Source of the DNA: Niallia alba
Lineage (GTDB): Bacteria; Bacillota; Bacilli; Bacillales; Cytobacillaceae
Reading direction: 5' to 3'
Assembly (NCBI RefSeq): GCF_012933555.1
Contig: NZ_JABBPK010000001.1
Coordinates: 5,124,001-5,188,000 of the forward strand
DNA: 64,000 nucleotides
Position numbers and translations under genes: made by a program. Below the pieces are notes generated by a model. The model was not told the origin of the DNA. It worked only from the letters and a program-made list of their open reading frames with translations, and did no database searches. Positions 4,150 to 26,472 of this stretch are shown in pieces (position 1 is the stretch's first letter; the number at the start of each line of letters is the position of its first letter).

Positions 4150-4170
4150 CTATTTGTGATACGGTTCACC
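4150..4170 (-). repeat. Left cassette attachment repeat (RlmH-tail-like), copy B
   Basis: Read on the minus strand, these 21 bases encode Gly-Glu-Pro-Tyr-His-Lys-stop (GGTGAACCG TATCACAAATAG), the conserved C-terminus of RlmH, where SCC cassettes of staphylococci insert. A second copy at 26449-26469 is in the same orientation and differs at only four third-codon positions. No rlmH body is attached here, as expected for the distal end of an integrated cassette. Confidence 0.75.
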
Positions 4171-4200
4171 GTAATGTATTTAAATGAGGTTTTTTATTAA
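4160..4200. repeat. Left terminal inverted repeat of the SCC-like element
   Basis: The palindrome TACGGT-TC-ACCGTA (4160-4173) is followed by 7 bases and then TAAATGAGGTTTTTT. The minus strand at 26472 to 26431 reads TACGGT-GA-ACCGTA, 7 bases, then the same 15 bases. Both copies point inward, so they bound an element of about 22.3 kb. The stop codon of the TIR-domain gene (4197-4199) lies inside this end. Confidence 0.75.
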
Positions 4201-5039
4201 TCTAATGAATCTAATACAACTTGATGAATTTGATTCACCATTTCGTCTAATGTCTGCTTACTTGTATTAAACGCATATTTGTCGACTATATAAGGATTGT
4301 ATTGTCTAACATCATCTACAGAAACTTCATGCCAAATTGGAAGAATAATGACTCTTTTCTCATTGATTTCTCTATTTAAAAAGCTTTTAAATTCATATTG
4401 CGACCAACCGCTATCAATAAAGTTTTTGGATAAGAAAATTACAACAAACCTCGAATTTAATATCCCCATATTCATCATATCCGTTTGACTCTGTCCTATT
4501 TTAAATACCTTGACATCTTCAAAAACTTTCAATCCTTTATTACTAAGATTCTCCGATAACTCCGAAACAAAAATATCTTTATCGAGGCTAGAATGTGATA
4601 GGAATACATCAAACTCTATTATTTCTTTATCCTTAACTGAATGCTTAATATCTAATGAAAGTTCATTTAATTTTTCCGACATCTCAGAATAACTGTTTAA
4701 ATACTCTAAATTTGTATTCGCTTGTGATTCCATTGATTTTAGCATGGTTTTAAATTGCTTTTCCTGCTCTTTTGCTAGCCGACCTTTATACCTGTTCATA
4801 CTTTCAGTATTTTTACGTATTTGTTCAACAAGCGATGTAATATCTTTATCTTGTTTTAGTAATTCTTTATTATATTGACCTATTTTTTGAATGTCCATTT
4901 TCGTTATACTTCTCTTACCTGAAAGTTTTAGTATCTTATCGGCTTTTAAATCCCTTTTCTTTCTAGCATCTGTCAATTTCTTTTGAAGTTGAATATCCTT
5001 TTCTGTAATCCTTTTTAAGTTAGTTTCATTTATCCCCAT
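4197..5039 (-). CDS. Coiled-coil TIR-domain protein
   Basis: A 280-residue protein. Residues 1-140 are highly charged and helical, with heptad-like spacing and no membrane segment. Residues 143-280 form a TIR domain: FDVFLSHSSLDKDIFVSELS, then FVVIFLSKNFIDSGWSQYEF. The Glu in WSQYEF aligns with the catalytic Glu of NAD-cleaving TIR domains. Bacterial TIR proteins often act as NADase effectors in antiphage defence, and here the coiled coil could be the sensor or oligomeriser. AAGAGGGTG precedes the ATG. No Thoeris ThsA partner is adjacent, so it is a solitary effector or an undescribed arrangement. Confidence 0.85.
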   Translation of the reverse strand: MGINETNLKRITEKDIQLQKKLTDARKKRDLKADKILKLSGKRSITKMDIQKIGQYNKELLKQDKDITSLVEQIRKNTESMNRYKGRLAKEQEKQFKTMLKSMESQANTNLEYLNSYSEMSEKLNELSLDIKHSVKDKEIIEFDVFLSHSSLDKDIFVSELSENLSNKGLKVFEDVKVFKIGQSQTDMMNMGILNSRFVVIFLSKNFIDSGWSQYEFKSFLNREINEKRVIILPIWHEVSVDDVRQYNPYIVDKYAFNTSKQTLDEMVNQIHQVVLDSLD

Positions 5040-5135
5040 TAATACACCCTCTTACGATATAATATAAAACACGAAACAAACATATGTTTCCATTTTACAA
5101 TATAAGAGAATTTTTTTCAATTTTCTATAATTCCT

Positions 5136-5210
5136 TCATCTTCTCTGAGAAACATCTGACGCTAAACTAGTAACTATCCCAACTAATGTACCCAATACAA
5201 AATAAGGCAT
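5136..5210 (-). CDS. Tiny hydrophobic peptide (24 aa), paralogue 1
   Basis: A 24-residue frame starting MPYFVLGTLVGIV and ending in SQRR, with AAAGGAGAGAGGG just upstream. A central hydrophobic segment with a basic tail suggests a single membrane helix. Its best support is a paralogue at 7770-7841 that starts MPYFLLGTVVGIV. The function is unknown; size and composition resemble type I toxins or small membrane regulators. Confidence 0.6.
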   Translation of the reverse strand: MPYFVLGTLVGIVTSLASDVSQRR

Positions 5211-5245
5211 ATCCCTCTCTCCTTTCATTTTAAGTACCTAAATAA

Positions 5246-5279: not shown

Positions 5280-5296
5280 TAGTTGTTATTTCTGTA

Positions 5297-5467: not shown

Positions 5468-5486
5468 ATACAATTCCTCATGTAGT

Positions 5487-6360: not shown

Positions 6361-6585
6361 ATGCAAAAGAAATTGACCGTTAAAATAAAAGAACTAACTG
6401 AAAAGCACAATATTTCTATTCGTGAATTATCACGACTAACAGATATCCGTCATGCTACGCTAAGTGAACTTGCAAATGAAAAACGTCAAAATATCAATTT
6501 CGGTCATATTGAAAGAATTGCTGAAGCCTTTGACATTGAAGATATTAGAGAAATTATCGACTTTAAAAATAGTAAAAATAATTAA
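6361..6585 (+). CDS. Cro/C1-type (XRE) transcriptional regulator, 74 aa
   Basis: A single-domain lambda-repressor-type helix-turn-helix. The recognition region (NISIRELSRLTDIRHATLSE) sits at residues 16-35 and IERIAEAFDIEDIREII closes the fold. The protein is almost only the DNA-binding domain, like phage Cro and YozG-type regulators. AAAGGA precedes the ATG. It likely controls itself and the divergent gene at 6209 through the dyads between them. Confidence 0.85.
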   Translation: MQKKLTVKIKELTEKHNISIRELSRLTDIRHATLSELANEKRQNINFGHIERIAEAFDIEDIREIIDFKNSKNN

Positions 6586-6713: not shown

Positions 6714-7337
6714 TTAAATAAATACTTTCTTAGCTGTTTTCCCAATAATATTTGTCCCAATTCCATCTACAGTTCCTCCAATAAAACCACCTATTAGAGG
6801 TACAGCTTTACCAAGGTTAACAACACCTTTTTCTCCGAACTTAGTGACTAGTCTAAAACCAACTGCTTTATTTATTGATTTAATAATTTCCCCGGGTATT
6901 TTCTTGATAGCTTGTTTGGTAAGTGCAGTTCCTGCTTTAATTCCAGCCTGTTTTAAAATATCTGAGGCTGACTGACCTGTTAAACATACAAAGACGAATG
7001 TTTTTACTTGGTCATCTTTTAAATCATATCCTCTCATATGTGCAATCGCTGCAATCATTCTCATTTGTACATAAGTGACAGAAGCTATATTGGCTGGTAT
7101 CGCTACTGGTAAAGTAATCAATCCCCCTAAACCTGTTAAAAATCCACTCGTTACGGATTTAGTATTCTGCCAGCGAACTAGACTGTTAATAGCATTATCT
7201 GTGGAATCGTGTTTCGCCATAAAATTCTCGGCTAATTCATAAGCTGTATCCGTTCCTGGTATTCCATTTATAGACTTTTCATAAGCCCAATCCAACAATT
7301 TACCCACTTTACTCTCTGTTAATTGATTATCTGACAT
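6714..7337 (-). CDS. EcsC-family protein
   Basis: A 207-residue protein of the EcsC family. The family core is visible: a hydrophobic segment (TSGFLTGLGGLITLPVAIPA), then VQMRMIAAIAHMRGYDLKDD and FVFVCLTGQSASDILKQAGI. Gly-rich hydrophobic segments at the C-terminus (VPLIGGFIGGTVDGIG) suggest membrane association. EcsC-like proteins are widespread in Gram-positives but their biochemical role is unsettled. It is part of a run of minus-strand genes between the cassette end and the recombinase. Confidence 0.8.
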   Translation of the reverse strand: MSDNQLTESKVGKLLDWAYEKSINGIPGTDTAYELAENFMAKHDSTDNAINSLVRWQNTKSVTSGFLTGLGGLITLPVAIPANIASVTYVQMRMIAAIAHMRGYDLKDDQVKTFVFVCLTGQSASDILKQAGIKAGTALTKQAIKKIPGEIIKSINKAVGFRLVTKFGEKGVVNLGKAVPLIGGFIGGTVDGIGTNIIGKTAKKVFI

Positions 7338-7436: not shown

Positions 7437-7754
7437 TTAATCATTTATGATAGCGTAGCAAAGCTGAATATCATCTGATTGCCTTATACCAATTCGTAAT
7501 ACTATTATGCTTTTCAAACAAACTTTCTCCATAAATTCTAGTTCTATTTGGTTTCTAGTTAGTTCAACTAATTCTTTTTCTGCTTCTAATACCATCACCG
7601 CCTGACAAAAAGGAAGCGTAAATTCTTCTATATTTTCACCATTGTTTAGATATTCATATAGACCGTAAAATTCCTCCTCTAGATACTGCATAAAGTCCTC
7701 ATGAAATTCTTGTTTTAATGCCAATAACTCCATTTTACTTTGAATTCTTTTCAT
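7437..7754 (-). CDS. Hypothetical protein, 105 aa
   Basis: Not recognised. Mostly helical and acidic (MELLALKQEFHEDFMQYLEE), with a C-terminal LKSIIVLRIGIRQSDDIQLC segment. There is no signal or membrane segment. GGAGGCT-like spacing upstream supports the ATG at 7754. A tiny peptide gene precedes it by 15 bases on the same strand. Confidence 0.6.
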   Translation of the reverse strand: MKRIQSKMELLALKQEFHEDFMQYLEEEFYGLYEYLNNGENIEEFTLPFCQAVMVLEAEKELVELTRNQIELEFMEKVCLKSIIVLRIGIRQSDDIQLCYAIIND

Positions 7755-8106: not shown

Positions 8107-8397
8107 TTACAGAAAGCATATAGGCTTAATAAGTTCACCACCTTTCAATAAACCAATTCCTAAATCCTGCAATCCCTGTTTATCCTGTAACAAGAAAACA
8201 ACATTCGATTCACCGCCATCATAGAAGAATACCCAACATGTTAATTCCCCCTTAAATTCATTTGGAATACTAGCCTTAAGCTCCTCGTTCTTTAAATCAT
8301 CTGCCGATGAGACCCTAACATCTACTTTCCAATCTTTCCATGCTAGATGTGGGTGGTGCTCCTCCATGTAGCTCCTAAATACCTTAATAACGCTCAT
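8107..8397 (-). CDS. Hypothetical protein, 96 aa
   Basis: Not recognised. A compact soluble protein with alternating hydrophobic strands (ELTCWVFFYDGGESNVVFLL). It begins 18 bases after the recombinase stop on the same strand, so it may be read from the same transcript if the hairpin at 8435-8485 is bypassed. AAGGA lies upstream of the ATG. Confidence 0.6.
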   Translation of the reverse strand: MSVIKVFRSYMEEHHPHLAWKDWKVDVRVSSADDLKNEELKASIPNEFKGELTCWVFFYDGGESNVVFLLQDKQGLQDLGIGLLKGGELIKPICFL

Positions 8398-8414: not shown

Positions 8415-10103
8415 CTATAAGTCGATTAAAATAGAAAAAGGAGAAGAGAAATCATCTTCAGTTGACGATTTCTCTTCTCCTTTTTTTGTGAAGTGCCGAA
8501 CCACTTCATTGTTAAGTTGTATTTGAATTGAGTCGATTTCTCGACTTTCTCCAATTTTGATTTCTCGTATGAGCAAGTGCAATAATCGTTTCTTTTGTTC
8601 AGTCGATATTGTATTTCTATAGTTTGCTGCAAAGTTAGACATCACCTCCTTAACCAATCCGTAATCAACGTTTATATGATTCTGCCCTGATAGCTGCAGC
8701 TCTAAAGGTGACAATCGCTCTTGCATTAGCTTTTTTTCATCATTTAACTTCTCTAGTCTTTCAACTAAATCAACCTTTTCTATTACACCATCTTCATATA
8801 ACCCAAGAACTTTGTCCTTTTTAGATTGGTTTTCACTAAGGGATTTCTTTAATACTTCATATTCTTTACGCAAAGGGGATTCTTTCTCTTTCAATCCACC
8901 ATTAATCCTAGTTACCACATCCCTAATCAAATTGTCGCTGTTAGCCAACCTTCCAATTTTATTTAGCACATATTTATCAGCATACTCAGTTCTAATTCCA
9001 TTAGAGCGACAAACCGCTGTTCCTTTGTTTTTCCATGCACCACAAACATAATACTCAAGAACACGCTTACTACCATCCTTATTTCGGTTAGTGGTTCTTC
9101 CCAATACCATGCCTGCTCCACATGCTGGACATTTCATTACACCAGTTAGTGGATATTCTCCGCTGTGAACACGATTAGGCGTTTTACTCCTATTCTTTAG
9201 TATCGCTTGTGCCTTTTCCCATGTTTCTTCTGATATAATCGGATCATGTTGCCCTTTTTCAATTACAGGATTGGGATTGATATTGTTTCTTCTTTTTTCA
9301 CTCCAATCTTGTCTTACGTTATATCTAATGAAGCCTACATAAATAGGATTTGTAAGTATAGTCCTAATCGCATTAATAGAAAATGAATTTCCCTTTTTAC
9401 TGCGATGTCCTTCTTTGTTAACCTTATTTGCTATTGCTTTATATCCGTGTCCTCCCGTATAAAGCTCAAATATCCGTCTAACTGTTTGGGCTTCTTTATC
9501 ATTTATAACTAGCTTGGATATTTTCCTTTTCCTATTATCACTAGGGGTACTCACTACATCATAACCAAGGACTTGTCCACCATTCCACGAACCTTCTCGG
9601 GCTCGTGCTAACATACCCATTTTGACATTTTCAGCAATATTAGCACGTTCAAATTCGGCTATTGCAGCCATCATTTGAAATTGTAACCTTCCAGATGGAG
9701 TTTCCGTTTCATACCGTTCTGTATAGGAGCGAAAGCCGATCCCTTTATTCTGCAATCTTTCTACGATTGTTAGAAGGTCAATACTTTTTCTTGAAAGTCG
9801 ATTCATTTTCCACACTAATACAACATCAAAACATTTCTGATTAGCATCATGAAGAAGTTCCTGAATAGCTGGTCTACCTTTAATGTTTTTACCGCTTATT
9901 CCTCGGTCAACGTATTCTTTATAGACAACATAACCCTCTCGCTCACACCATTGTCTTATGACGTTTATCTGCTCATCAATACTGTAACCTTCCTCAGCTT
10001 GTTCTACTGTAGAAACACGAGCATATATAGAAGCTCTTTTCTGTGTTCCAGCTTGATTACTATAGTCAAGCTGGTCGTATAGATTCAATGCATGGCTCTG
10101 CAC
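8415..10103 (-). CDS. Large serine recombinase (Ccr-type cassette recombinase)
   Basis: About 562 residues. A resolvase catalytic domain comes first (SIYARVSTVEQ with the nucleophilic Ser; WKMNRLSRKSIDLL with both catalytic Arg). It is followed by a recombinase domain (NAIRTILTNPIYVGFIRYN), a zinc ribbon (MKCPACGAGM ... YYVCGAWKNKGTAVC) and a coiled coil near residues 410-470. Length and plan match cassette chromosome recombinases and phage integrases of the serine type. Neighbours (DUF927 ATPase, DUF950/960/1643, RadC) point to the Ccr role of excising and inserting the element. GTG at 10103 is preferred: GAAAGGAG is 9 nt upstream, while the ATG at 10112 is only 1 nt from it. Confidence 0.9.
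   Translation of the reverse strand: MQSHALNLYDQLDYSNQAGTQKRASIYARVSTVEQAEEGYSIDEQINVIRQWCEREGYVVYKEYVDRGISGKNIKGRPAIQELLHDANQKCFDVVLVWKMNRLSRKSIDLLTIVERLQNKGIGFRSYTERYETETPSGRLQFQMMAAIAEFERANIAENVKMGMLARAREGSWNGGQVLGYDVVSTPSDNRKRKISKLVINDKEAQTVRRIFELYTGGHGYKAIANKVNKEGHRSKKGNSFSINAIRTILTNPIYVGFIRYNVRQDWSEKRRNNINPNPVIEKGQHDPIISEETWEKAQAILKNRSKTPNRVHSGEYPLTGVMKCPACGAGMVLGRTTNRNKDGSKRVLEYYVCGAWKNKGTAVCRSNGIRTEYADKYVLNKIGRLANSDNLIRDVVTRINGGLKEKESPLRKEYEVLKKSLSENQSKKDKVLGLYEDGVIEKVDLVERLEKLNDEKKLMQERLSPLELQLSGQNHINVDYGLVKEVMSNFAANYRNTISTEQKKRLLHLLIREIKIGESREIDSIQIQLNNEVVRHFTKKGEEKSSTEDDFSSPFSILIDL
8435..8485 (-). terminator. Terminator-like hairpin inside the recombinase 3' end
   Basis: AAAAAGGAGAAGAGAAATC (8435-8453) is the exact complement of GATTTCTCTTCTCCTTTTT (8467-8485). 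On the minus strand the stem is followed by TTTTTCTATTTT. It lies 18 bases or more before the recombinase stop codon (8415), so termination here would yield a message without a stop codon. Confidence 0.7.
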
Positions 10104-10608
10104 TAGATTCATCTCCTTTCATGCATGCCCCTTTGGTCATTATCAACCTCGCCAGGGAAGATAATGAAATATCTCTTTTACACGCAAGATGCTCGTGTTC
10201 AAGTAATTCCGCCATCCATTGGAAATGCAACATACTATCCGGTGTTGAGGTGTCAAATGGTTCCGTAGCTGAACACAACTCCACATTATATTGAGCTAGA
10301 AATCGATGAATATTTAATAAATCTGTCGGGTTTGAAGTTAAACTAAATAAATCCCACACTAACACCACATCAATTTTCCCTAAAAATGCATCCAAAAATA
10401 ATCGCATTAGTTCAGGTCTTCTTTTTGGATTATAACATCCAATTTCAGAGTATATTCCTTGGATTTTATATCCCATTCTTTCATACTTTTCTTTTAATAC
10501 TTGGATGTCACGATAGCGTCTGCGACCTTCTGGTTGTTCAGTGGATGTGTTCCGAGTATAGATAGAAATTCTAACCTCTTGCAATTGGTCATTTTTCAGC
10601 ATTTGCAT
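10066..10608 (-). CDS. Degenerate resolvase-domain protein
   Basis: About 180 residues, matching only the catalytic domain of serine recombinases and lacking the recombinase and zinc-ribbon domains. Key residues are altered. The Tyr-x-Arg-x-Ser motif reads IYTRNTSTEQ, so Thr occupies the nucleophile position. The Arg-x-x-Arg motif reads LFSLTSN and both arginines are gone. It is probably inactive as a recombinase and may pair with, or regulate, the full-size enzyme. The ATG at 10608 follows AAGGAGAGGGAA. Its 3' end overlaps the recombinase start, indicating coupling. Confidence 0.75.
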   Translation of the reverse strand: MQMLKNDQLQEVRISIYTRNTSTEQPEGRRRYRDIQVLKEKYERMGYKIQGIYSEIGCYNPKRRPELMRLFLDAFLGKIDVVLVWDLFSLTSNPTDLLNIHRFLAQYNVELCSATEPFDTSTPDSMLHFQWMAELLEHEHLACKRDISLSSLARLIMTKGACMKGDESSAEPCIESIRPA

Positions 10609-10720
10609 TTCCCTCTCCTTCATTTCGTTTTGGATTAGTAGTCAAATAGTTTTTGACCATTTCCGCTAATATGTCTATTAGTGTTTGATATTTGTATTCC
10701 GCTGCTTCTTCCATGCTCAT
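10589..10720 (-). CDS. Small protein (43 aa) upstream of the recombinase pair
   Basis: Starts MSMEEAAEYKYQTLIDILAE and overlaps the start of the resolvase-like gene by about 20 bases. GAGAGGGA lies upstream of the ATG. It is acidic and helical, with no recognised family. The overlap suggests a three-gene unit with the two recombinase-like genes. Confidence 0.55.
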   Translation of the reverse strand: MSMEEAAEYKYQTLIDILAEMVKNYLTTNPKRNEGEGNANAEK

Positions 10721-10855: not shown

Positions 10856-10985
10856 TCCCCCTGTCCCCCTACTCCACCGCAATTATTTGCAACAAGGTTA
10901 TATAAAACAATTTGTATCCATAACTCCTAATCATTAATATTAGATCCTTGATAAAATGATTAGAGGGAGGAGGGGGACAGGGGGA
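10856..10985. repeat. G/C-rich inverted repeats between the ATPase and recombinase genes
   Basis: TCCCCCTGTCCCCCT (10856-10870) is repeated in inverse orientation as AGGGGGACAGGGGGA (10971-10985), with CTCC/GGAG extensions. These stand out in an AT-rich region. The 275-base gap between the DUF927 gene end (11000) and the 43-aa gene (10720) has no other gene. It could hold the recombinase promoter with its control site, or a replication start used by the DUF927 ATPase. Confidence 0.6.
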
Positions 10986-10999: not shown

Positions 11000-12802
11000 T
11001 CAACTTACTAATTCATTGAATAGCTCTTCCCCATAAACAATACAAATAGTGTAATCGCCTTTTTCAGCAAATCCCTCTTTACCCGTTAGTTCTTCTCGAA
11101 GTTGAACCTCATCCTTGGAAAAAATAAGCTTCTTTTTTTGTGACTTGTTTTTATCGTGCATGAGAACATCCATGGTTTTCAGTTCATTTAAGAGTATCCT
11201 TGTGTCAGTAAAATTGAATTCTTTTGCAATTTTATTGAAAATAACAGGGAGAATATAACAGTAGGTTTTCCCGCTTCGAGTTTCAATTCTCCCCCATATC
11301 TCTTGATATTGAAGAGAAGGTTTGTCTTGGATTTTGAAATTCTTTCTGTACTGTATGATGTACTGCCTTAGTTGATTATAAAATTTAGGAGCCATTTCTC
11401 TTTCAGTCATTGACTCTTGTTCTTGGTCAATCAACATCTGAATAATCTCTTCCACAGATAGCCTTATCTCGAATGTTTCTTCAAAGAGTTCAGCGGCAGT
11501 TGTGATTAAGGCATGTTTTAGAGCTATTCTTGAAGTAAGCCTATTTTTCGGTAAAATTTTCACAAGCTTTTCTTTGTTATCGTTCAGCATATTAAGAATT
11601 GCTGTGGGACCATATTCAATCATCTTTTTAGCGATAATCGGAGCAATGAACCCATAATTATTTAAAAGACCCTTTTTCAGACGGTCAGCATTTTCTGCAT
11701 TTTTAGTCCACTGTATTCTAGGGAATTCAAACAGCCTTACCCTCAATCCTTCATTCTGATTTAACCTACTAATAATGGAATTTTCACCAGTAGACATGAC
11801 AGTAGTGCTCCATGATCCAGGGTCTTTTCTCTCGGATTCTTTACTTAATCTTAGGCGTCCACGATTTTGGGAAACCTCATACGAGAATGAGCTCAAAGCT
11901 TCCGAACTCATATCGTTCATAGAAAACTCATCAAAAGCAATAGGAACTCCATTGTTTCCTATCAAACTATTGGACAATGCATTTTTTGTGCCATTGAATG
12001 ACTGTACTAAGCCGCCTTTATCTTTTATACTTGGGGAACCTGCAGTTGAGGTATATAACATCGCAGCGGTTGTCTTCCCCGTTGTGGTTCTTCCAGGTAA
12101 ATGAACCCATAAAGTATCTAGTTCTGCAACACCAGCGCAATTTAGCATCCCAATTATTAAAGAAGAGATCCCTAAACAAATTGCCAATTCCAGCGGTGCA
12201 TAGCCTATAGCCTCACGAATTAATAGACTTTTGTAATCATTGTAAGAGCCTACGGGCCTTATATTTAATTCTCCAGCATAGGTTGACTGATTTGATGTTC
12301 CAACAATTGTGAAATGTTTATATACTAATTCACCATTTACTAGATCCCAACCAATACCTGTATGGATATTGGCTGGCTTTATCTGTTTCTCTTGTTTACT
12401 TAGGAATGAAAATACATGGGAAACTTGGGAGTCTTGTATGATATCCATCCCTTTTGAAACTAATTTCTTTAAGTCTCTCTTATTCAGTTCCCCTCGATTT
12501 ATAGCAATAGTTTCCCACCTGTCATAAGCCCAAAAGGCAATTTCTAAATCTATGTCTTTTGTTTCAAGATTCCTACTAATTCGATTTATCTTAACAGCCT
12601 TACAAATAGGATGATATTTTTTCTCATTTGCTTCCCAAATCATCAAATTTTCCCCTTCAATTTTATAAGGAAATTCTGTTACATCTTCTGTTTGAATTTG
12701 ACGCATTGGGATCTCTTTATTTTCTTCCCCTTCTAACTCTCTTTTTGGAAGTGGTTCTTTTTCAACTGTCTTAACAGGTCGTCTTACTTTCCTGATTGCC
12801 AT
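11000..12802 (-). CDS. DUF927-domain ATPase (Cch-like SCC replication helicase)
   Basis: A 600-residue protein whose middle part (about 150-400) is a DUF927 domain. The P-loop is HLPGRTTTGKTTAAMLYTST, the Walker B-like stretch is GVPIAFDEFSM, and VMSTGENSIISRL resembles a sensor region. In staphylococcal SCC elements the DUF927 protein Cch is an MCM-like helicase thought to support replication of the excised cassette. Its place next to the recombinase genes supports the same role here. The start overlaps the stop of the preceding gene (TAATG), so they are coupled. Confidence 0.85.
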   Translation of the reverse strand: MAIRKVRRPVKTVEKEPLPKRELEGEENKEIPMRQIQTEDVTEFPYKIEGENLMIWEANEKKYHPICKAVKINRISRNLETKDIDLEIAFWAYDRWETIAINRGELNKRDLKKLVSKGMDIIQDSQVSHVFSFLSKQEKQIKPANIHTGIGWDLVNGELVYKHFTIVGTSNQSTYAGELNIRPVGSYNDYKSLLIREAIGYAPLELAICLGISSLIIGMLNCAGVAELDTLWVHLPGRTTTGKTTAAMLYTSTAGSPSIKDKGGLVQSFNGTKNALSNSLIGNNGVPIAFDEFSMNDMSSEALSSFSYEVSQNRGRLRLSKESERKDPGSWSTTVMSTGENSIISRLNQNEGLRVRLFEFPRIQWTKNAENADRLKKGLLNNYGFIAPIIAKKMIEYGPTAILNMLNDNKEKLVKILPKNRLTSRIALKHALITTAAELFEETFEIRLSVEEIIQMLIDQEQESMTEREMAPKFYNQLRQYIIQYRKNFKIQDKPSLQYQEIWGRIETRSGKTYCYILPVIFNKIAKEFNFTDTRILLNELKTMDVLMHDKNKSQKKKLIFSKDEVQLREELTGKEGFAEKGDYTICIVYGEELFNELVS

Positions 12803-13302
12803 TATGCAACCGCCTCTACTTTCTCGTTTAGTATCAAAACCTTTATTTTTTCTCCCTCTAATCCAAAACTTGTAGAGGAAAAAGTAGGTGAATAATTAAT
12901 CATTTCATTCGGTGCCCCCCACACTGTTCTATCAGGACTTTCCATTAGGCACCGTTTAAGAAATTGAATATTAGACTGTGCGTTACTTAAAAAGAACAGA
13001 AATTGAATGATTAACTTTAAATATTGACTTCGAGTCATTACCATCTGAAATTCTTTTGCATACCAGTGGATTTCGATGCGATCAGGAAAAACTACTATTT
13101 CATTTGGTACTACCGACCAAGTTTCTATATTTTGTAAAAGTTCATAAAGCTGCTTTCCCAGGCTTACTTTCTCCCCTAAGGAATCTTTCTCTATTACAGC
13201 TGAGAGACGATATAAAGCGTTAATTCCATCATAATGATCCTCTCGTATCGGACTGGACTTTAATAGTTGAAGCCAAATAATAAATTGATGTAGGTTTTTC
13301 AT
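12802..13302 (-). CDS. Hypothetical protein, 166 aa, coupled to the DUF927 gene
   Basis: Not recognised. Helical N-terminal half (NLHQFIIWLQLLKSSPIRED), then a strand-rich part (NEIVVFPDRIEIHWYAKEFQ). It overlaps the DUF927 start by one base and follows the 140-aa gene by 17 bases. That operon position suggests a partner of the helicase, as in SCC elements where small proteins travel with Cch. Confidence 0.65.
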   Translation of the reverse strand: MKNLHQFIIWLQLLKSSPIREDHYDGINALYRLSAVIEKDSLGEKVSLGKQLYELLQNIETWSVVPNEIVVFPDRIEIHWYAKEFQMVMTRSQYLKLIIQFLFFLSNAQSNIQFLKRCLMESPDRTVWGAPNEMINYSPTFSSTSFGLEGEKIKVLILNEKVEAVA

Positions 13303-13319: not shown

Positions 13320-13742
13320 CTAATTTACGAGTGCTTCAATATTTATTGAAAATGTAAATGTATCAATAGCGTTGTTGAGATACCAACCAATAACCAATGA
13401 ATCATCTTTCACTTCATAACCTACTGGTTTCACATCAAATACATCTAAATTATCAATGAGAAATTGAATTGTGGTATTACGTTCTTCTTCTTCCATATCA
13501 GCTAGTGGGCAACGTTTATAATGTGTTATTTCCGCAAAGACCATAATATTCTTTAACGGATTTGCATTATCAAGCACCCAAAAATCATTCTCACTACCAT
13601 TTGAACTTTCCAGATCATCAGCTATAATACTTCTCAATTCCTTTTCCTTTACATTTCCTAGACTTTCATATTGTTGTTGTGCATCATCAAATAGGGTAAG
13701 ATTACCCCGATAATACCTTTTGACTAATTTTTCTACTGACAT
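13320..13742 (-). CDS. Hypothetical protein, 140 aa
   Basis: Not recognised. Soluble and acidic, starting MSVEKLVKRYYRGNLTLFDD. It is the first gene of the unit with the 166-aa protein and the DUF927 ATPase, and AGGGAGGC lies upstream of the ATG. A role in cassette replication is inferred from position only. Confidence 0.65.
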   Translation of the reverse strand: MSVEKLVKRYYRGNLTLFDDAQQQYESLGNVKEKELRSIIADDLESSNGSENDFWVLDNANPLKNIMVFAEITHYKRCPLADMEEEERNTTIQFLIDNLDVFDVKPVGYEVKDDSLVIGWYLNNAIDTFTFSINIEALVN

Positions 13743-14848: not shown

Positions 14849-14867
14849 TCCTACATCTCCTTGCAAA

Positions 14868-15571: not shown

Positions 15572-15599
15572 AGAACGACTCCTTTCAACTATAATATTA

Positions 15600-16130: not shown

Positions 16131-16577
16131 TCAGATTATGCCTTTCTCTTTTAATGAGATAAAGGTTTCATCGCCAACGATTATGTGGTCAAGAACATCT
16201 ATGCCAATAATTTTTCCTGCTTCTACTAGTCTTTTAGTCACCTCTATATCTTCTTTGCTTGGTTCTACCTTTCCCGATGGATGATTATGACCAATGATTA
16301 TACTTGCTGCTGAGGATAAAATTGCTGACTTCATAACCTCCCTAGGATGAACGATGCTGGCGTTTAAGCTCCCAATATGGCAGATATTAATTGATACTGG
16401 CTGGTTTTTAGTATCAAGTGAAGCTACGATAAAATGCTCACGGTCTTTGTCTTCTAAGAATAACTTCATTAATTGATAACCATCTTCTGGTGACCTTACA
16501 GATCGTTCTTTGTATAGTATGCTTGATTCTTTTACCAATTTTAATGATACAATGTTAATTCGTTTTGCTGATTGCAT
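16131..16577 (-). CDS. RadC-like JAB-domain protein
   Basis: 148 residues covering the RadC JAB1/MPN domain (DUF2466). The metal-binding motif is IIIGHNHPSGKVEPSKED, with the conserved Glu/His region before it (FIVASLDTKNQPV). The N-terminal UPF0758 helical part of chromosomal RadC is missing, as is usual for plasmid and SCC copies. RadC-like genes are regular members of SCC modules, but the biochemical role is unclear. It is transcribed away from hsdR. Confidence 0.88.
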   Translation of the reverse strand: MQSAKRINIVSLKLVKESSILYKERSVRSPEDGYQLMKLFLEDKDREHFIVASLDTKNQPVSINICHIGSLNASIVHPREVMKSAILSSAASIIIGHNHPSGKVEPSKEDIEVTKRLVEAGKIIGIDVLDHIIVGDETFISLKEKGII

Positions 16578-19527: not shown

Positions 19528-19574
19528 AGACCATATTGTTAATTAATCCAAATAAATATTCCATTTATAAAGGA

Positions 19575-19602
19575 AGAGCGCAAAAAATGCGCTCTTTTTT
19601 TG
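19575..19602 (+). terminator. Terminator after hsdR
   Basis: AGAGCGCA pairs with TGCGCTCT over a short A-rich loop, followed by a T-run. It merges with the first operator-like palindrome at 19601. Confidence 0.85.
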
Positions 19603-19703
19603 ATATATTTTAAAATATCAAAAATAAAATTAAAAATTTATTGATATTTTTAAAAATATCAGTTATAATAAGTTTAGTGGTGTTGATATATTAAAAAATA
19701 TCA
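19601..19703 (+). promoter_or_regulatory. Three phased palindromes around the promoter of the HsdS-like gene
   Basis: Three 20-bp dyads with TGATAT-N8-ATATCA arms lie at 19601-19620, 19642-19661 (perfect) and 19684-19703. Their starts are 41 and 42 bp apart, about four helical turns. A promoter fits in the middle: TTGATA (19641-19646), 17 bp, TATAAT (19664-19669). The second dyad overlaps the -35 box and the third runs into the ribosome site. Confidence 0.8.
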
Positions 19704-19716
19704 TAGGGGGGTTATT

Positions 19717-20307
19717 GTGAAACTTAATCAAATCGCACAATTTACACAAGGGGCTTTTGCAAATCGATTAGAAACTTTCTCTAACAACATCGAGACAACA
19801 AAAGTTAGACTGCTTTCACTCAAACAATTTAACGAAACCCTTGGACTGACTTATCGAATATCAAATGAGAAAAGTGCTGAAATAACTGTACCAAAAGAAA
19901 AATTAACTCCACAACTCTTAACAGATACAAATAGTTTAATATTACACACACATACCCAAAAAGTTGCTTTGTTACCTGATAAATATAGCGGGTTATTATT
20001 AACAAATAACTTTATTAAAATTCAAATGACAGGCAACGTAGATGCCTCCTTCTTTGAATGGTACTTTAATGAACATCCATCCATTCAAAAACAGCTTTCT
20101 GTGTTAAGTGAAGGAACAGTCATTTCATTACTGAAACTTTCTCATTTAAAGGATTTAGAAATTGACTTACCACCTATTCAAAAGCAAATAACTATTGGAA
20201 AAATTGCTCAGTTGAAAAAGTTACAAGAGTCACTGATGGCTGAAAAACGCGAATTACAACAGATTTATATTCAACAGAGGCTAATTCAAAGTATCAACGT
20301 GAATTAA
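19717..20307 (+). CDS. Half-size HsdS-like protein
   Basis: 196 residues: one target-recognition-domain-like half plus one C-terminal coiled coil (PPIQKQITIGKIAQLKKLQE). Full HsdS has two of each and is encoded 1.6 kb downstream. It sits between hsdR and hsdM under a promoter with three phased palindromes, and ends 23 bases before hsdM. It might form a dimer that gives the methylase a second specificity. It might also bind DNA as a regulator of the locus, given the bipartite dyads. GTG at 19717 is the start, preceded by AGGGGGG. Confidence 0.8.
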   Translation: MKLNQIAQFTQGAFANRLETFSNNIETTKVRLLSLKQFNETLGLTYRISNEKSAEITVPKEKLTPQLLTDTNSLILHTHTQKVALLPDKYSGLLLTNNFIKIQMTGNVDASFFEWYFNEHPSIQKQLSVLSEGTVISLLKLSHLKDLEIDLPPIQKQITIGKIAQLKKLQESLMAEKRELQQIYIQQRLIQSINVN

Positions 20308-20330
20308 TAATAACTAAGGAGGAACTTATT

Positions 20331-21884
20331 ATGACGACAAGTGAAAAACAACGCCAACAACAAGCTGAATTACATAAAAAATTATGGGCGATGGCAAATG
20401 ATTTACGAGGTCAAATGGATGCCAACGAATTTAAGGATTATATTTTAGGATTAATTTTCTATCGTTACTTATCTGAAAAGGTAGAAGCACGTGCAAAAAA
20501 ATTACTAAAAGACGATAACATTTCTTATACAGAGGCCTGGGAAAATGAAGAGTACCGTGAGGACTTAGCAGAATATCTTATAGAAGAGTTAGGTTATGTA
20601 GTAGAGCCTCAATTCCTATTCTCACGTTTCCTTGAGGAAATTGAAAAAGGAGCAAATGGTAACTTCGATGTAGAGATGCTACAAAACGGTGTAAAAGCAA
20701 TTGAATCATCTACTTTAGGTACTGAAAGCCAAGACGATTTCCAAAATCTATTCGACGATATGGATTTAACTTCTTCCCGCTTAGGGCGTACAGTGAAGGA
20801 TCGTACAAATTTAATCAGTAAAGTAATTGTCAACATTGCTGATATTCCATTTTTACAAGATGATGTAGAAATTGATATTTTAGGTGATGCATACGAATAC
20901 ATGATTTCTCAATTCGCAGCTAATGCAGGGAAGAAAGCTGGCGAGTTCTATACGCCACAACAAGTATCTAAAATCTTAGCGAAGATTGTAACTGCGGGAA
21001 AATCAGAAATACGTGATGTGTATGACGGAGCTTGTGGTTCAGGATCTTTGCTACTTCGTGTAGGTAAAGAAGCGAAAGTACACAAATATTACGGACAAGA
21101 AAAAGTATCAACAACATACAACTTAGCTCGTATGAATATGTTGCTACATGATGTCCCTTACCAACGTTTCGATATTCAAAATGCAGATACATTAGAAGAA
21201 CCGCAACATATCGACCAGCGCTTTGAAGCAATCGTTGCCAATCCTCCGTACTCAGCAAAATGGAGCGCAGATGACAATTTCAAAGAAGATGAGCGCTTTA
21301 GTGCCTATGCAAAACTAGCACCAAAATCAAAAGCGGACTTCGCCTTCATCCAGCACTTTATTCATCAACTAGATGATAATGGGACAATGGCTGTTGTATT
21401 ACCACATGGTGTTCTATTCCGTGGCGCAGCAGAAGCAACAATCCGTAAGTATCTGATCGAAGAAAAAAACTACTTAGATGCAGTAATCGGATTACCAGCC
21501 AATATTTTTTACGGCACAAGTATCCCAACGTGTATCCTTGTATTCAAAAAATGCCGTAAACATGATGATAATGTACTATTCATTGATGCATCTAATGAGT
21601 TTGAAAAAGGTAAAAATCAAAACCATTTAGCTGATGAACATGTGGAAAAAATCATTGTAACACTCCAAAGACGTGAAATGATCGATAAGTTTTCATACGC
21701 AGCAACCTTGGATGAAATCAAAGAAAATGACTACAACTTAAATATCCCTCGTTACGTGGATACATTTGAAGAAGAAGCACCGATTGATTTAAAAACAGTG
21801 AAGCATCGTCTAAAAGAAATTGATGATGAAATTGAAAAAGTGGATCGAGAGTTAGAGAAGTATTTTAAAGAGTTGGAGGTGTAA
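20331..21884 (+). CDS. hsdM: Type I restriction-modification methylase M subunit
   Basis: 517 residues. N-terminal HsdM_N helical domain (LWAMANDLRGQMDANEFKDY). SAM-binding motif VYDGACGSGSLLL and the adenine-N6 catalytic motif IVANPPYSAKW. C-terminal helices contact HsdS. It methylates adenine in the target chosen by HsdS. AAGGAGG precedes the ATG. The stop is 4 bases before hsdS, so M and S are co-translated. Confidence 0.95.
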   Translation: MTTSEKQRQQQAELHKKLWAMANDLRGQMDANEFKDYILGLIFYRYLSEKVEARAKKLLKDDNISYTEAWENEEYREDLAEYLIEELGYVVEPQFLFSRFLEEIEKGANGNFDVEMLQNGVKAIESSTLGTESQDDFQNLFDDMDLTSSRLGRTVKDRTNLISKVIVNIADIPFLQDDVEIDILGDAYEYMISQFAANAGKKAGEFYTPQQVSKILAKIVTAGKSEIRDVYDGACGSGSLLLRVGKEAKVHKYYGQEKVSTTYNLARMNMLLHDVPYQRFDIQNADTLEEPQHIDQRFEAIVANPPYSAKWSADDNFKEDERFSAYAKLAPKSKADFAFIQHFIHQLDDNGTMAVVLPHGVLFRGAAEATIRKYLIEEKNYLDAVIGLPANIFYGTSIPTCILVFKKCRKHDDNVLFIDASNEFEKGKNQNHLADEHVEKIIVTLQRREMIDKFSYAATLDEIKENDYNLNIPRYVDTFEEEAPIDLKTVKHRLKEIDDEIEKVDRELEKYFKELEV

Positions 21885-21887
21885 TAG

Positions 21888-23105
21888 ATGAGTGCACCTA
21901 AGTTAAGATTTAAGACTTTTCACAATGAATGGAAAGTGACTCTCCTTAGTGATTTAATGTCCTTTAATAATGGAATCAATGCAGATAAGGGCAGCTATGG
22001 TCATGGCCGTAAATTTATTAACGTATTAGATATCTTAAACAATAATTCAATAGAATATGACAACATTATTGGTTCTGTATCTGTCTCTAAAAATGTTGAA
22101 GATAATAATAAAGTTGAATATGGTGATTTACTATTCCTTCGTAGTTCAGAAAATAGAGAAGATGTAGGTAAAAGTACTGTCTATTTAGATAAAGATAAAT
22201 TTGCTCTATTCGGTGGTTTTGTCATTCGTGGCAAAAAGCATGGAGATTATCATCCTTACTTTTTGAAACTTAATTTAGAATCACCTAGAATTAGACATCA
22301 AATTGGTTCTAAAGCAGGAGGAAGTACACGTTTTAATGTTAGTCAGTCCATTTTAAACTCTATTGAAGTTTCTATGCCCTCACCAAATGAACAAAAAAAG
22401 ATCGCGGAGTTTATGGAACATTTTAATAAGAAACTAAAACTGCAACAAGATAAAATTGAATTATTGAAAGAACAGAAAAAAGGCTATTTGCAGAAAGTCT
22501 TTAAGCAAGATATACGGTTTAAAGATAATAAGGGTAATGAATTCCAGGAATGGAAAGAGACATCTTTTAATGATTTGTTTGAATCAAGAAATATTAAACA
22601 AATTCCGACAGCAGATGCTCCATTAATGGCGTTTACGTCAACAGGTGGGGTCGAGGAAAAAGGCGATAGATTTAATAGAGAATTTCTTGTGAAAAATGAA
22701 AATAAAACCTATAAGAGAACGGAATTGAATGACCTTATTTATAGTTCAAATAATTTGGATGTCGGAGCTATCGGCAGAAATAAATATGGTTCAGCGGTTA
22801 TATCTGATGTATATGAAATTTTCAAAGTGAAAAATACAACTACTCCCGAATTTGCTGAAATTTTAATTCAACAAAAAAATATACTGCATGAAATTTTAAA
22901 GTATAGACAAGGGGCTTTATATGGTCAATATAGAATTCATGCATTTGATTTTCTAAGTGTGATCGCTAAAATACCATCAATAGAAGAACAAGAAAAAATA
23001 GGAGCTTTTTTTTCAATATTAGATGCAAAGATTCAGTTAGAAAAAGAAAAATTATCAGCACTTGAAAAACAAAGAACAGCCCTCATGCAACAAATGTTCA
23101 TTTAG
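21888..23105 (+). CDS. hsdS: Type I restriction-modification specificity subunit
   Basis: 405 residues with the standard two-repeat plan. The first target recognition domain is at 1-155, and a conserved helix at about 160-205 (NEQKKIAEFMEHFNKKLKLQ). The second recognition domain is at 215-355, and a second helix at the end (IEEQEKIGAFFSILDAKIQL). The target sequence cannot be read from the protein. ATG follows GGAGG at hsdM's end. No inverted repeats for phase variation are obvious inside it. Confidence 0.93.
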   Translation: MSAPKLRFKTFHNEWKVTLLSDLMSFNNGINADKGSYGHGRKFINVLDILNNNSIEYDNIIGSVSVSKNVEDNNKVEYGDLLFLRSSENREDVGKSTVYLDKDKFALFGGFVIRGKKHGDYHPYFLKLNLESPRIRHQIGSKAGGSTRFNVSQSILNSIEVSMPSPNEQKKIAEFMEHFNKKLKLQQDKIELLKEQKKGYLQKVFKQDIRFKDNKGNEFQEWKETSFNDLFESRNIKQIPTADAPLMAFTSTGGVEEKGDRFNREFLVKNENKTYKRTELNDLIYSSNNLDVGAIGRNKYGSAVISDVYEIFKVKNTTTPEFAEILIQQKNILHEILKYRQGALYGQYRIHAFDFLSVIAKIPSIEEQEKIGAFFSILDAKIQLEKEKLSALEKQRTALMQQMFI

Positions 23106-23112
23106 TGAAAAC

Positions 23113-23192: not shown

Positions 23193-25379
23193 CTATGTGA
23201 AACTTATTAAATTTTGAATTTTTTTCTTTTCATAATTTAAGAGACTACTCTCATTCAAAACTTTCTCATCCCTAATAAATTTTAGAACATGATTTATAGG
23301 TAAATCCTTAGGAATAAATCTTTCAATTTTTTTAATCGCTGAAGAAGGAACACCTAAATCTATTAGATGTGCTAAATTACTAGAGACGTATTCATTTTCT
23401 AATAAGCTAGCATATATTTTATAATTGCCAGGCTTTATTCCATTTTTATGACAAACTTCAGTTTGAAGCTTATCAATTACATTTAACCATTTAGGTACCT
23501 TATACTTTAACCAATGTCTATGAACCTGCATTGTATTTAGAATTGCTAAATCTAAAATTTGGTTCTTATTTTTATTTTTGTTAGCTGTTTGCTTAGATTG
23601 ATATATGTATTCAGACCGTATAGAGTCTATAAAACCATCTTTCACTCCAAAATTATTAGTTATAAAAACTAATTTTCCTTTTGTCATTGGTAAGGTAGTC
23701 TCACCAGGTTTTAAAAGATTATCCCAACCTAACTCTAATATATATGATAATTGTTTATATGTGGGAATACCCTCCCAACATATCATATTTTGATGGTCAG
23801 CGAGATTTTCCTCTATTTCTTTTATAATTTTTAGTTGTCCATTAACGGATATATTATTATTTTTGACAACCTCAAAATAATCGCCTAAAGTGTCAACTAA
23901 GTTGTTATAACGTTCAGTTTGTTCTTTTTTTATATTATCTTTTTCCAGGCTAATAATAACTTCATCTGAAGCTTCAACCTGATCAAAAAAAGGAATATCT
24001 ATTATTACATCATTATTACTAGGAATTTCATTAAATAAATAAACCTTCCCTAATATATGCTTCATAAATCTTCCCGATCTACCTTTAATATTACTAAAAT
24101 CGAAATAGTCAATTTCTTTTCCACCCTTAATGTTATCGAATATTACTACATTTTTTGCAGTAGTATTCACTCCCTCGATAAGAGTAGAAGTACAAAATAA
24201 ATAGTTTAATTTTTGATTATTAAAATAATCGACAACACTTTCATTGATATGCTTAATTATTGCTCCATTATGAACTCCAATTTTATATTTTAAAAGTTTA
24301 TTATAGGTCCATTGTGGAGTTAAATTTTCATTAATCCATTCAATTAATTCGAGTTCTTCTTCATTTTCTACTTTTCCTTTTTGCATAAGGTAATCCAAGA
24401 ACTTTATAGATAAGCTCATTACCCTATTTGGTGAAGAGCAATATATAATAGTCTGTTCTTCTTTTAAGTTAAATAATAACTCAAATAAAAGATTTTCTTT
24501 AAATTTTATTTTCCCTGGAGAATTAAGCTCTTTTTTATATTTTGTATATAAATCAATAATGTCGTTATTTACTAAAGAATAATTGGTTTTGTAGAAAATT
24601 GCATTATATTTCTCTGCGAAACCTGGTGAGATATTGGTTATGTTGGGTCCTAGTAAATAAAATTGAGCTCTATGTTTATTTATTAGTAAATTAGCTGCCA
24701 TATTTAAAATATCTGACCGTTCATCATCTCTCTTGGAACTTAACTTATAAAACTCATCTATTATTACAAAATCAATTTTGGGGAGATTATTAAACTCTAT
24801 TACTCTTTCTGCAGTTAATATAAAAATATTATTTTCATTATTCTCAACTTCTTGACTTGTAGTTACTATAATATTATAGGTATTATTATATTTAACTAAT
24901 TTTTTGAATGTTTCATGTATAAGTGCAAGAGTAGGTTGTATAATTACTATATTTTTATACTTTCTACTTGCTACTATCTCCTCTATTAAAAGACTTTTCC
25001 CAAAGCTTGTTGGAGCACTTACAACCAGGTTTTTATTATTTTCTAAATAATCTAAAAGTATTTTTTGCTCTCTATGTAAAGTAATATTACCAATATTACT
25101 CGATTCGTGATAATATGTCCTAATTTCTTGACCTAAATCTTTAATGTCATTGCTGTCATAAACTTTTAAATATGGATAGAAACCTGCTGAGTCTAATAAG
25201 TCTATCCAAATCTTTTTCGTTCCTTGTTCAACTTTTTCCCAATTATCAATTATCGCCAACAATATGTCTCTTCCCATTTGTTCATCCATACTTCTCAGGT
25301 ACCTTGAACAAATACTCGTTAAAGCAAAACTATACTCAAAATCAATAAATTCCTTATTATAAATATCTTCTATATTCAT
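23193..25379 (-). CDS. hamB: Hachiman helicase HamB
   Basis: 728-residue superfamily 2 helicase. Motif I is VVSAPTSFGKSLLIEEI, motif II is FVIIDEFYKLSS (DEFY instead of the usual DEAH), and motif VI is KGRSGRFMKH. FCTSTLIEGVNTTAKNVVIF lies between. It starts directly after the HamA stop (TAAATG), with AGGTGA inside the end of hamA as its ribosome site. In Hachiman defence HamB senses damaged or phage DNA and releases the HamA nuclease. Both genes are intact. Confidence 0.85.
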   Translation of the reverse strand: MNIEDIYNKEFIDFEYSFALTSICSRYLRSMDEQMGRDILLAIIDNWEKVEQGTKKIWIDLLDSAGFYPYLKVYDSNDIKDLGQEIRTYYHESSNIGNITLHREQKILLDYLENNKNLVVSAPTSFGKSLLIEEIVASRKYKNIVIIQPTLALIHETFKKLVKYNNTYNIIVTTSQEVENNENNIFILTAERVIEFNNLPKIDFVIIDEFYKLSSKRDDERSDILNMAANLLINKHRAQFYLLGPNITNISPGFAEKYNAIFYKTNYSLVNNDIIDLYTKYKKELNSPGKIKFKENLLFELLFNLKEEQTIIYCSSPNRVMSLSIKFLDYLMQKGKVENEEELELIEWINENLTPQWTYNKLLKYKIGVHNGAIIKHINESVVDYFNNQKLNYLFCTSTLIEGVNTTAKNVVIFDNIKGGKEIDYFDFSNIKGRSGRFMKHILGKVYLFNEIPSNNDVIIDIPFFDQVEASDEVIISLEKDNIKKEQTERYNNLVDTLGDYFEVVKNNNISVNGQLKIIKEIEENLADHQNMICWEGIPTYKQLSYILELGWDNLLKPGETTLPMTKGKLVFITNNFGVKDGFIDSIRSEYIYQSKQTANKNKNKNQILDLAILNTMQVHRHWLKYKVPKWLNVIDKLQTEVCHKNGIKPGNYKIYASLLENEYVSSNLAHLIDLGVPSSAIKKIERFIPKDLPINHVLKFIRDEKVLNESSLLNYEKKKIQNLISFT

Positions 25380-26324
25380 TTATTCACCTAAATTCTGCAT
25401 AATAACAAGTTTTTTATGCAATCCTTTGACTAAATCAACTTTAGATTTTACAGGAAATAATATTACTATTATATTTAAATGACCTTTTAGAGGATGATCA
25501 TAGTTATCATCAAAATATTTCTTTAATTTCTTTATCTCATTCTCATAAGCTTGAATAAAATCGTCATTTCTTTCATCTGAATGTTGATTAAACAAATCAC
25601 ATGAATAAGTACAAATTAACGGTATTACAATTTGATTTAATTGGTCAGCTAATTTTGTTGTAGTGTCTAATAAACTTAACCAATAATCCACTTTTTCATT
25701 AGGTTCTGTGTCTTTAAGCCTATTCGATATAATTGTAAATTCGTCATTTAAATAGTCCCTTTTAAAATGTTCTTTAAGATCTTCAATTAAAGCTAACAGC
25801 CCTTTTTTTCCATCTGTATAAAGTTTAGATTCTCCCAACCACAAAGTCCTATCTAATTCGTTGATATGTACAGAATCGAAACCATGAACTGCATGTCCAT
25901 ACGAGTCTTTAAAATAAACTTTTGATATTAATGGAACTGTTCCATGGAAGTTTTTTAAGATAAAGTGTAATATTATTTCTCCAAACTCTCCTCTCTTCAA
26001 ATACTTTTTATCAATTTCTATATCATCTTCAAGTTCTTGGCCTGTTAAATACAAGTCTGAAACTTCTCTAAACTCTTTAATCTTATATATTGACTTCGCT
26101 GCTTGATATATTTTATTAACAATTTCATCATTAGAAGTTTTGGTTCCTTGATGAAACCCAAAAGCAAACTCTGGAATGATGTTTATTAGATAACTTATAA
26201 ATTCATTTAGTCGATACACCATCTCTCCATCATCGTTCAAGTCATAGCCTATATAATATGTAACTAAGTCATTTTCCATTATTCTTGTATTTAGTATTTT
26301 TGAAGCTCTAGCAACAGTAGTCAT
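25380..26324 (-). CDS. hamA: Hachiman nuclease HamA (DUF1837)
   Basis: 314 residues of the DUF1837 family. A PD-(D/E)xK-like active site can be traced: Glu in RGEFGEIILHFILKNF, Asp in AVHGFDSVHI, and Glu-x-Lys in LWLGESKLYTDG, at about residues 130-185. HamA is the effector of the two-gene Hachiman system and cuts DNA when freed from HamB. It lies upstream of and abuts hamB. A TATAAT-like -10 is present on the minus strand at 26376-26381. Confidence 0.85.
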   Translation of the reverse strand: MTTVARASKILNTRIMENDLVTYYIGYDLNDDGEMVYRLNEFISYLINIIPEFAFGFHQGTKTSNDEIVNKIYQAAKSIYKIKEFREVSDLYLTGQELEDDIEIDKKYLKRGEFGEIILHFILKNFHGTVPLISKVYFKDSYGHAVHGFDSVHINELDRTLWLGESKLYTDGKKGLLALIEDLKEHFKRDYLNDEFTIISNRLKDTEPNEKVDYWLSLLDTTTKLADQLNQIVIPLICTYSCDLFNQHSDERNDDFIQAYENEIKKLKKYFDDNYDHPLKGHLNIIVILFPVKSKVDLVKGLHKKLVIMQNLGE

Positions 26325-26383
26325 ATAACCTCCAACTATTAAAAAACCTTGTTAGGAATTGGTAATTTTATATAAATTATACC

Positions 26384-26414
26384 ATAAAAAAAGCCTAACT
26401 GAATAAGTTAGGCT
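26384..26414 (-). terminator. Terminator facing hamA from the right
   Basis: AGCCTAACT (26392-26400) pairs with AGTTAGGCT (26406-26414) and has seven T on the minus strand. It would stop transcripts entering the cassette from outside, just before the hamA promoter. Confidence 0.75.
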
Positions 26415-26430
26415 ACGGCTACTAATACCG

Positions 26431-26472
26431 TTAACAAAAAAACCTCATTTACTTATGGTACGGTTCACCGTA
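26431..26472. repeat. Right terminal inverted repeat of the SCC-like element
   Basis: Read on the minus strand from 26472: TACGGT-GA-ACCGTA, 7 bases, TAAATGAGGTTTTTT, then TGTTAA. The left end at 4160-4200 has the same plan with identical spacing. See the left repeat. Confidence 0.75.
26449..26469 (-). repeat. Right cassette attachment repeat (RlmH-tail-like), copy C
   Basis: On the minus strand it encodes Gly-Glu-Pro-Tyr-His-Lys-stop as GGTGAACCG TACCATAAGTAA, matching copy B in the same orientation. The upstream codons do not encode the rest of RlmH. The sequence to the right (CCGTAGTTATTTAA) instead resembles another cassette end. Confidence 0.75.

Follow-up and report, generated by a model that had tools for sequence, protein, structure and literature searches.

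Positions 4160-26472 of a 64,000-nucleotide stretch of the Niallia alba genome (the window; C1:5124001-5188000 of 5.24 Mb) are very probably a mobile cassette of the staphylococcal cassette chromosome (SCC) type, about 22.3 kb long, which stands in the middle of a composite island downstream of rlmH. In staphylococci, cassettes of this type carry methicillin resistance. Published work already describes SCC-like islands at rlmH in bacteria other than staphylococci (PMC10061031, PMC6222049, PMC10581047), and the cassette is a variant of this known kind that differs in gene order, in its separate recombinase group and in a putative inactive recombinase subunit. The apparently new feature is this second recombinase of 185 amino acids (aa), which consists of the catalytic domain only, lacks the active site and is encoded by a gene overlapping that of the active recombinase. 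Gene functions rest on profile matches throughout. An initial annotation of the stretch had placed genes for a recombinase and for DUF927, DUF1643, DUF960 and RadC-like proteins between two matching ends about 22.3 kb apart, which Pfam and exact 14-bp repeats confirm. It read them as an SCC-like cassette outside the staphylococci, defined at both ends and carrying a single full recombinase along with defence genes, a reading that is supported here; the gene for the 185-aa protein was not named in it.

The ends of the cassette are well defined. The 14-bp sequence TACGGTTCACCGTA has exactly two plus-strand copies, at 4160-4173 and 26459-26472, where 0.14 matches would be expected by chance even at two mismatches. 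On the minus strand each copy reads TACGGTGAACCGTA then YCAYAARTA, overlaps the last rlmH codons (G-E-P-Y-H-K; GGNGAACCGTAYCAYAA) and has GA as its central dinucleotide, as do CcrAB sites (PMC10581047). The rlmH-proximal attachment (att) core (26459..26472, minus strand) is TACGGTGAACCGTA followed by CCATAAGTAA, an exact copy of 4160-4173 that matches the rlmH 3' end GGNGAACCGTAYCAYAA. Repeat search and locus comparison place the distal core at 4160..4173 (minus strand), where TACGGTGAACCGTA is followed outside the cassette by TCACAAATAG, a sequence of the rlmH-downstream type. As in SCC in the broad sense, GAACCGTACCATAA and GAACCGTATCACAA stand at the ends around a central GA, each one base off TATCATAA. 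The host's own rlmH (SPOUT_MTase by Pfam; locus L022, 10348-10827) lies about 48 kb from the right end of the cassette and terminates in GGGGAACCGTACCATAAATAG; it does not hold the complete 14-mer because the TAC at the left of the repeat derives from the element side.

The inner ends are inverted repeats, again as in broad-sense SCC. The proximal inner attP arm (26431..26458), of the AAATGAGGTTTTTT type on the minus strand, and the distal inner arm (4174..4201) are inverted matches of each other, and the joined inner ends form a near-palindrome with 25 of 34 positions symmetric, a value reached by none of 20000 shuffles (mean 10.8), while the joined outer ends are symmetric at 16/34. The initial annotation had proposed conservation of the ends as a check, and relatives in other genera do keep them. 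In Robertmurraya (L011), an element that starts at an rlmH 3' end reaches its matching end after 15.6 kb (15605) and has an attP symmetric at 28/34, and an island of L. sphaericus (L016), which also starts at an rlmH 3' end, gives 21/34 and 20/34 for its first two units.

Between these ends lies a gene set of SCC type. The 565-aa large serine recombinase (LSR; 8415..10112, minus strand) is assigned to the Ccr group as an active enzyme by its Pfam domains, NCBIfam, the motifs YARVST and NRLSR, and a tree. YARVST is found in 15 of 15 family members, as are both arginines of NR[LF].R (NRFSR in L062-L066). A 44-row tree was built without L004_own, which reads as 25 aa in the chosen frame, and L079_hit, which duplicates the L065 locus. 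There the LSR belongs to a 16-row clade (96/97) that also holds Rossellomorea, Metabacillus, Robertmurraya, Oceanobacillus, Sediminibacillus, Lysinibacillus and other recombinases. It groups with CcrB and CcrC at moderate support (93/85) and apart from the five phage integrases used; clustering with phage integrases was part of what the initial annotation had said would refute its reading. Also outside the group are CcrA and, from the studied genome, the recombinases L022_ccr1, L005 and L006. Long branches were flagged for CcrA_Saureus, L022_ccr1, L094, L095, L006, CcrB_Saureus and L005, so the tree is relied on only for separating the Ccr group from the phage integrases. In the class, 47 of 398 genomes have CcrC-family matches at E<=1e-60, two of which exceed the CcrC cut-off, and the genome studied here belongs to another order than these two genomes with true CcrC.

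The LSR gene adjoins that of a Cch-type helicase (11000..12802, minus strand), the pairing of Ccr-type LSR with Cch or Cch2 that marks SCC in the broad sense (Pfam, NCBIfam, PDB match, tree). The helicase combines DUF927 with a Cch helix-turn-helix (HTH) by Pfam, scores 237 bits with NCBIfam SCCmet_Cch1 and matches PDB 5dgk (2.5e-50), which we take to be the SCCmec Cch structure. Farther along stand, all on the minus strand, a DUF960 gene (14953..15282; PF06124, 2.8e-17), a gene for a SAUGI/Ugi-fold protein, a predicted uracil-DNA glycosylase inhibitor (15257..15625), a DUF1643 gene (15600..16115; PF07799, 2e-19) and a gene for a RadC-like JAB protein (16131..16577; PF04002, 8.4e-44). The SAUGI, DUF960 and DUF1643 module of SCC is thus present, with SAUGI recognized by predicted fold only and the others by Pfam. 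The SAUGI-like protein named in the initial annotation holds at the level of fold: comparison of the predicted structure, a second look at the 1000 chains placed highest by Foldseek, ranked SAUGI/Ugi first, whereas Pfam, NCBIfam, PDB phmmer and hhalign gave no sequence match to SAUGI. Its true start is probably codon 19, because homologues begin there. SaUGI has been proposed to protect new SCC DNA (PMC7581432), which the Ugi-fold protein would fit.

A putative origin (10856..10985) directly follows the helicase gene and consists of inverted G-runs (GGGGGACAGGGGG) spaced by about 90 bp; SaPI and Cch2 origins lie in the same place (PMC7581432). Among 15 loci scanned by regular expression, both arms occur in eight (window, L009, L011, L012, L062 and L064-L066, with Cch-type and D5-type helicases alike), one arm in five and none in two (L010 and S. 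aureus L067). With both arms in only 8/15 loci, the paired G-runs are at most a possible common origin.

The cassette is one of several units in tandem. From rlmH the order is a 48-kb cassette, the 22.3-kb cassette studied here and a 5.8-kb unit. The 48-kb cassette (window 26473 to L022 10365) is bounded by inverted ends, AGAGGCAAAAAAA next to rlmH and TTTTTTGCCTCT outside the right end of the studied cassette, which when joined are symmetric at 20/34 (reached in 25 of 20000 shuffles), and its recombinase pair adjoins rlmH (L022 7102-8625 and 8695-10545). A further att copy at C1:5122355 delimits the 5.8-kb unit on its other side (window 1-4159 and L069 18355); no recombinase match was found in this unit, and an att scan of the 60 kb left of the window did not find the start of the core chromosome. 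Signatures of these ends also occur in other genomes of the order of the window, where the following tallies count signatures, not whole elements. An rlmH-type end with this cassette's inner-end signature occurs in 59/397 genomes and 43/136 genera; of 10 such loci sampled, four lie directly at rlmH, two after a second-type end and four are unclear (same regular expression). The sequence that flanks the left end of the window's cassette on the outside, AAATAGTGGTAAA, follows an rlmH-type end at 30 places in 29/397 genomes. Among 20 loci sampled from these 30 places, rlmH stands directly in front in 11, which are sites next to rlmH that lack such an element; the other nine comprise three with this cassette's inner end in front (the window included), three with a second-type end and three unclear.

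The gene that looks new is that of the inactive paralogue (10066..10623, minus strand), a 185-aa protein with a resolvase-type N domain only (PF00239, 2.3e-13) and, by Pfam, neither recombinase nor Zn-ribbon domain. Its open reading frame (ORF) overlaps that of the LSR by 47 nt, counted to the first ATG of the LSR. In 9/9 homologues the gene stands directly before an LSR gene with an LSR candidate start inside it, preceded in 8/9 by a GAAAGG run; in L014 the overlap is 8-17 nt, and a further candidate TTG lies later, beyond a gap. The active-site residues are lost in 9/9, the residue aligned to the active-site serine being Thr in eight and Val in one, and none of the nine keeps either arginine of NRLSR. 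At E<=1e-25 homologues occur in 7/397 genomes of the order, the window's included, and at 1e-30 in 3/348 genomes of the class, all within the order and among those seven. Among the nine family members from the recombinase search (the window and L009-L016; five further distant loci, L017-L021, were excluded from the count) the paralogue is present in the window, L009 and L014. Its neighbour is Cch in the window and L063, a D5-type helicase in L009 and an 855-aa protein of no assigned class in L014, so that it goes with the recombinase rather than with the helicase. Beside the same recombinase family, an 851/855-aa protein takes the helicase's place at L013 7021-9576 and L014 7046-9613; it has no Pfam or NCBIfam match, and a weak DnaB-like PHROG hit was obtained for L014 only.

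A tree of the N domain, built from 28 of the 44 recombinase rows cut to that domain (X letters of dead_L065 removed), places the nine paralogues in one clade (100/100) on a long branch (3.5), inside a 96/97 group with the window LSR family. This group holds 23 rows, the window recombinase family plus L076 and L082, and the long branch leaves the exact attachment point unsure. A staphylococcal-type CcrA in decay was considered as the source and rejected, because the protein has no hit to NCBIfam CcrA and scores 52.6 bits with CcrB, and the N-domain tree groups the paralogue with the window family.

Several observations weigh against the reading of 4160-26472 as an SCC-type mobile cassette. By score the LSR is no CcrA, CcrB or CcrC allotype (NCBIfam bits against cut-off: CcrB 409/900, CcrC 331/900, CcrA 107/700), the 93/85 support of the Ccr group falls under the tree program's own 95/80 mark, and Cch stays below its cut-off (237 against 700 bits). 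DUF1643, Ugi-fold and DUF960 genes lie upstream of cch here, in S. aureus downstream of ccrB, and no excised junction was seen, an attP pattern scan of viral_contigs giving 0 hits. The studied copy is also not directly in rlmH; it is the second member of a tandem array, about 48 kb farther downstream, and with another cassette in between it may no longer move alone. It could be an immobilized remnant, an old entry that now moves only within the composite island or by homologous recombination. Its position behind a second cassette fits this, as do the unit to its left, with no recombinase match and an insertion sequence (IS) absent from L065, and the block exchange suggested by left-block genes 92-97% identical to those of L066 beside an LSR identity of 68%. 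Both att cores are nevertheless exact, the attP arms are symmetric, the recombinase and helicase ORFs are open with the recombinase motifs present, and staphylococcal CcrAB also recombines non-canonical att pairs (PMC5595907), so we consider a remnant unlikely. Far less probable still is a prophage, phage satellite or conjugative element whose serine integrase happens to use rlmH. Serine integrases of Lactococcus phages are 32-33% identical to the LSR, but the Ccr group includes none of the five phage integrases used, and no structural, packaging or conjugation gene was found among the cassette ORFs scanned with Pfam and PADLOC. The SCC-type genes for Cch-HTH, DUF960, DUF1643 and the Ugi-fold protein are present, and the paralogue was found neither in 72,556 plasmid or 50,697 phage records (E<=1e-15) nor in viral_contigs.

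For the paralogue itself, the competing explanation is a decaying copy of a recombinase or a functionless by-product of the overlap with the LSR gene. The lost domains and active site would agree with this, as would its absence from 6/9 family members, which shows it to be dispensable. However, the ORF is open in 9/9 (L065 includes a stretch of N), and of 36 pairs 21 were saturated while the 15 measurable ones give a dN/dS outside the overlap of 0.16-0.36, which indicates that the paralogue evolves under purifying selection. The single clade at 100/100 contains two subgroups (window/L009/L061 and L062-L066) that match the LSR tree. On balance a functionless copy seems improbable to us. Against a functional inactive subunit it also counts that of the 15 pairs ten are among the five close sequences L062-L066 and two are near saturation, that the position directly following the lost serine is itself a serine in 8/9 (alanine in L061), and that the structure model is poor (pLDDT 56), so that its Foldseek matches to serine recombinase domains do no more than agree with Pfam. 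Most likely, the paralogue binds the active recombinase through a retained helix E, and we propose that it is a regulatory subunit. We give about an even chance to the broader proposal that an SCC branch outside the staphylococci has turned a duplicated Ccr into an inactive subunit, which joins the active tetramer and sets whether or when the cassette integrates or excises.

For the SCC-type cassette as a whole, we infer the following cycle from its ends, target, attP symmetry and gene content. The single active LSR would pair attB at the rlmH 3' end (core GGNGAACC, central GA) with an attP that the two inner ends make up, a near-palindrome no longer than 70 bp. After integration both ends would hold the core, and on excision the inner ends would be joined again in a circle, which Cch and the nearby repeat site may replicate while the Ugi-fold protein shields uracil-containing new DNA from the host UNG. 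The inactive paralogue, made from the overlapping upstream ORF, would bind the active recombinase via helix E and tune tetramer assembly or direction. The Hachiman, type I restriction-modification (RM), TIR and EcsC genes are anti-phage defence cargo.

Within this cargo, the type I RM system (16774..23105, plus strand) consists of HsdR (16774-19527, PADLOC), a short HsdS-like protein (19717-20307), HsdM (20331-21884, PADLOC) and HsdS (21888-23105), both specificity proteins being recognized by their Pfam domains. Hachiman (23193..26324, minus strand) comprises HamB (23193-25379; PADLOC 3.4e-258) and HamA (25380-26324; PF08878 1.1e-53, PADLOC 5.2e-126). On the left, Pfam and PADLOC identify two candidate defence genes on the minus strand, encoding a TIR-domain protein (4197..5039; PDC-S66; 92% identical in L066, 87.5% in L015) and an EcsC-family protein (6714..7337; PDC-S29), with a Cro/C1-type regulator by Pfam (6361..6585, plus strand) beside the latter. 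Four cargo genes, TIR to HTH (window 4197-7337; L066 6217-9355), are 92-97% identical to those of L066, which is of a different family, whereas the LSRs are 68% identical, so blocks have been exchanged; the EcsC of L066 is in two pieces, 89% and 70% identical. Directly downstream of the LSR gene lies a 96-aa protein gene (8107..8397, minus strand) with homologues in 11 of 14 other family loci (not L013, L015 or L016), followed by a 105-aa protein gene (7437..7754, minus strand) with homologues in the same 11/14 loci. Three further minus-strand genes precede cch, encoding a 166-aa protein whose ORF end overlaps the Cch start (12802..13302; homologues in L011, L015 and L062-L066; no family match in profile searches), a 140-aa protein (13320..13742; homologues in L009, L012 and L014) and a 312-aa protein (13928..14866; 60-64% identity in L010 and L011).

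Some observations concern the neighbouring units. The 48-kb cassette carries ArsA, ArsB and ArsD genes (Pfam, 33907-37902) and SspFGH (PADLOC, 55439-63971). In the 5.8-kb unit, an rve-type IS sits at about 1797-3394, which L065 does not have, and a glyoxalase-like protein shares 99% identity with a protein encoded next to an att site in L065 (15519-15944), which belongs to another family. At cassette-free sites in several genera, a short GTG-started frame (about VVKQRVEVVLDKEWLEK) overlaps the rlmH stop codon; examples lie just downstream of rlmH in L041 and L097-L100, and the frame also stands at window 4082-4150 (minus strand).

Among known systems, staphylococcal SCC (cch-ccrA-ccrB-SAUGI-DUF960-DUF1643; S. 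aureus p59736-1, L067) shares the following with the cassette: the att core with central GA at the rlmH end, the DUF927 helicase upstream of the recombinase, the SAUGI-fold, DUF960 and DUF1643 proteins, tandem units, RM cargo and arsenic genes, which are here in the neighbouring cassette. The LSR is 43% identical to its L067 counterpart over 74% of the length. In contrast to L067, one active LSR and an inactive N-domain paralogue replace CcrA and CcrB, the three-gene module lies upstream of cch together with RadC, and no mec gene was seen. Islands of the CcPol-MP type (PMC10061031) in Bacillus, Geobacillus, Planococcus and others are likewise in Bacillota outside the staphylococci, mostly at rlmH, with a large serine recombinase downstream of the helicase, defence cargo and, in some, a composite structure; some contain SCC-locus genes but show no synteny with SCC. 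The criterion for their selection was a PolA-SSB primase pair, to which Pfam found no match among the proteins scanned here. Mobile Enterococcus cassette chromosome (ECC) elements of Enterococcus faecium, for which circularization has been shown, share the rlmH 3' region, att repeats with the TATCATAA motif and Ccr-type recombinases, but their only two conserved genes are the CcrAB pair (PMC6222049). PMC10581047 lists SCC-like islands in other genera; the CI ccrDE island of Staphylococcus brunensis described there shares an SCC-like ccr complex, SAUGI, DUF960, DUF1643 and divergent recombinases, and differs in lying in rimL and in having two recombinases, polA and cch2. A literature search for an inactive recombinase partner found none described in titles and abstract openings of open-licence PMC papers, which is weak evidence of absence.

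The end signature of this cassette type follows an rlmH-type end in 59 of 397 genomes of the order, with a helicase, Ugi fold and att logic like those of SCC but with defence cargo and varied replication modules. CcrAB is reported to work without a recombination directionality factor (PMC5595907), which makes a dedicated inactive partner of interest. If the proposed role is true, the recombinase itself would have given rise to a factor for direction or activity, in contrast to CcrAB with no reported need of one. The putative inactive subunit makes control of the Ccr reaction a concrete, testable question, and it might provide a control handle for serine integrase tools.

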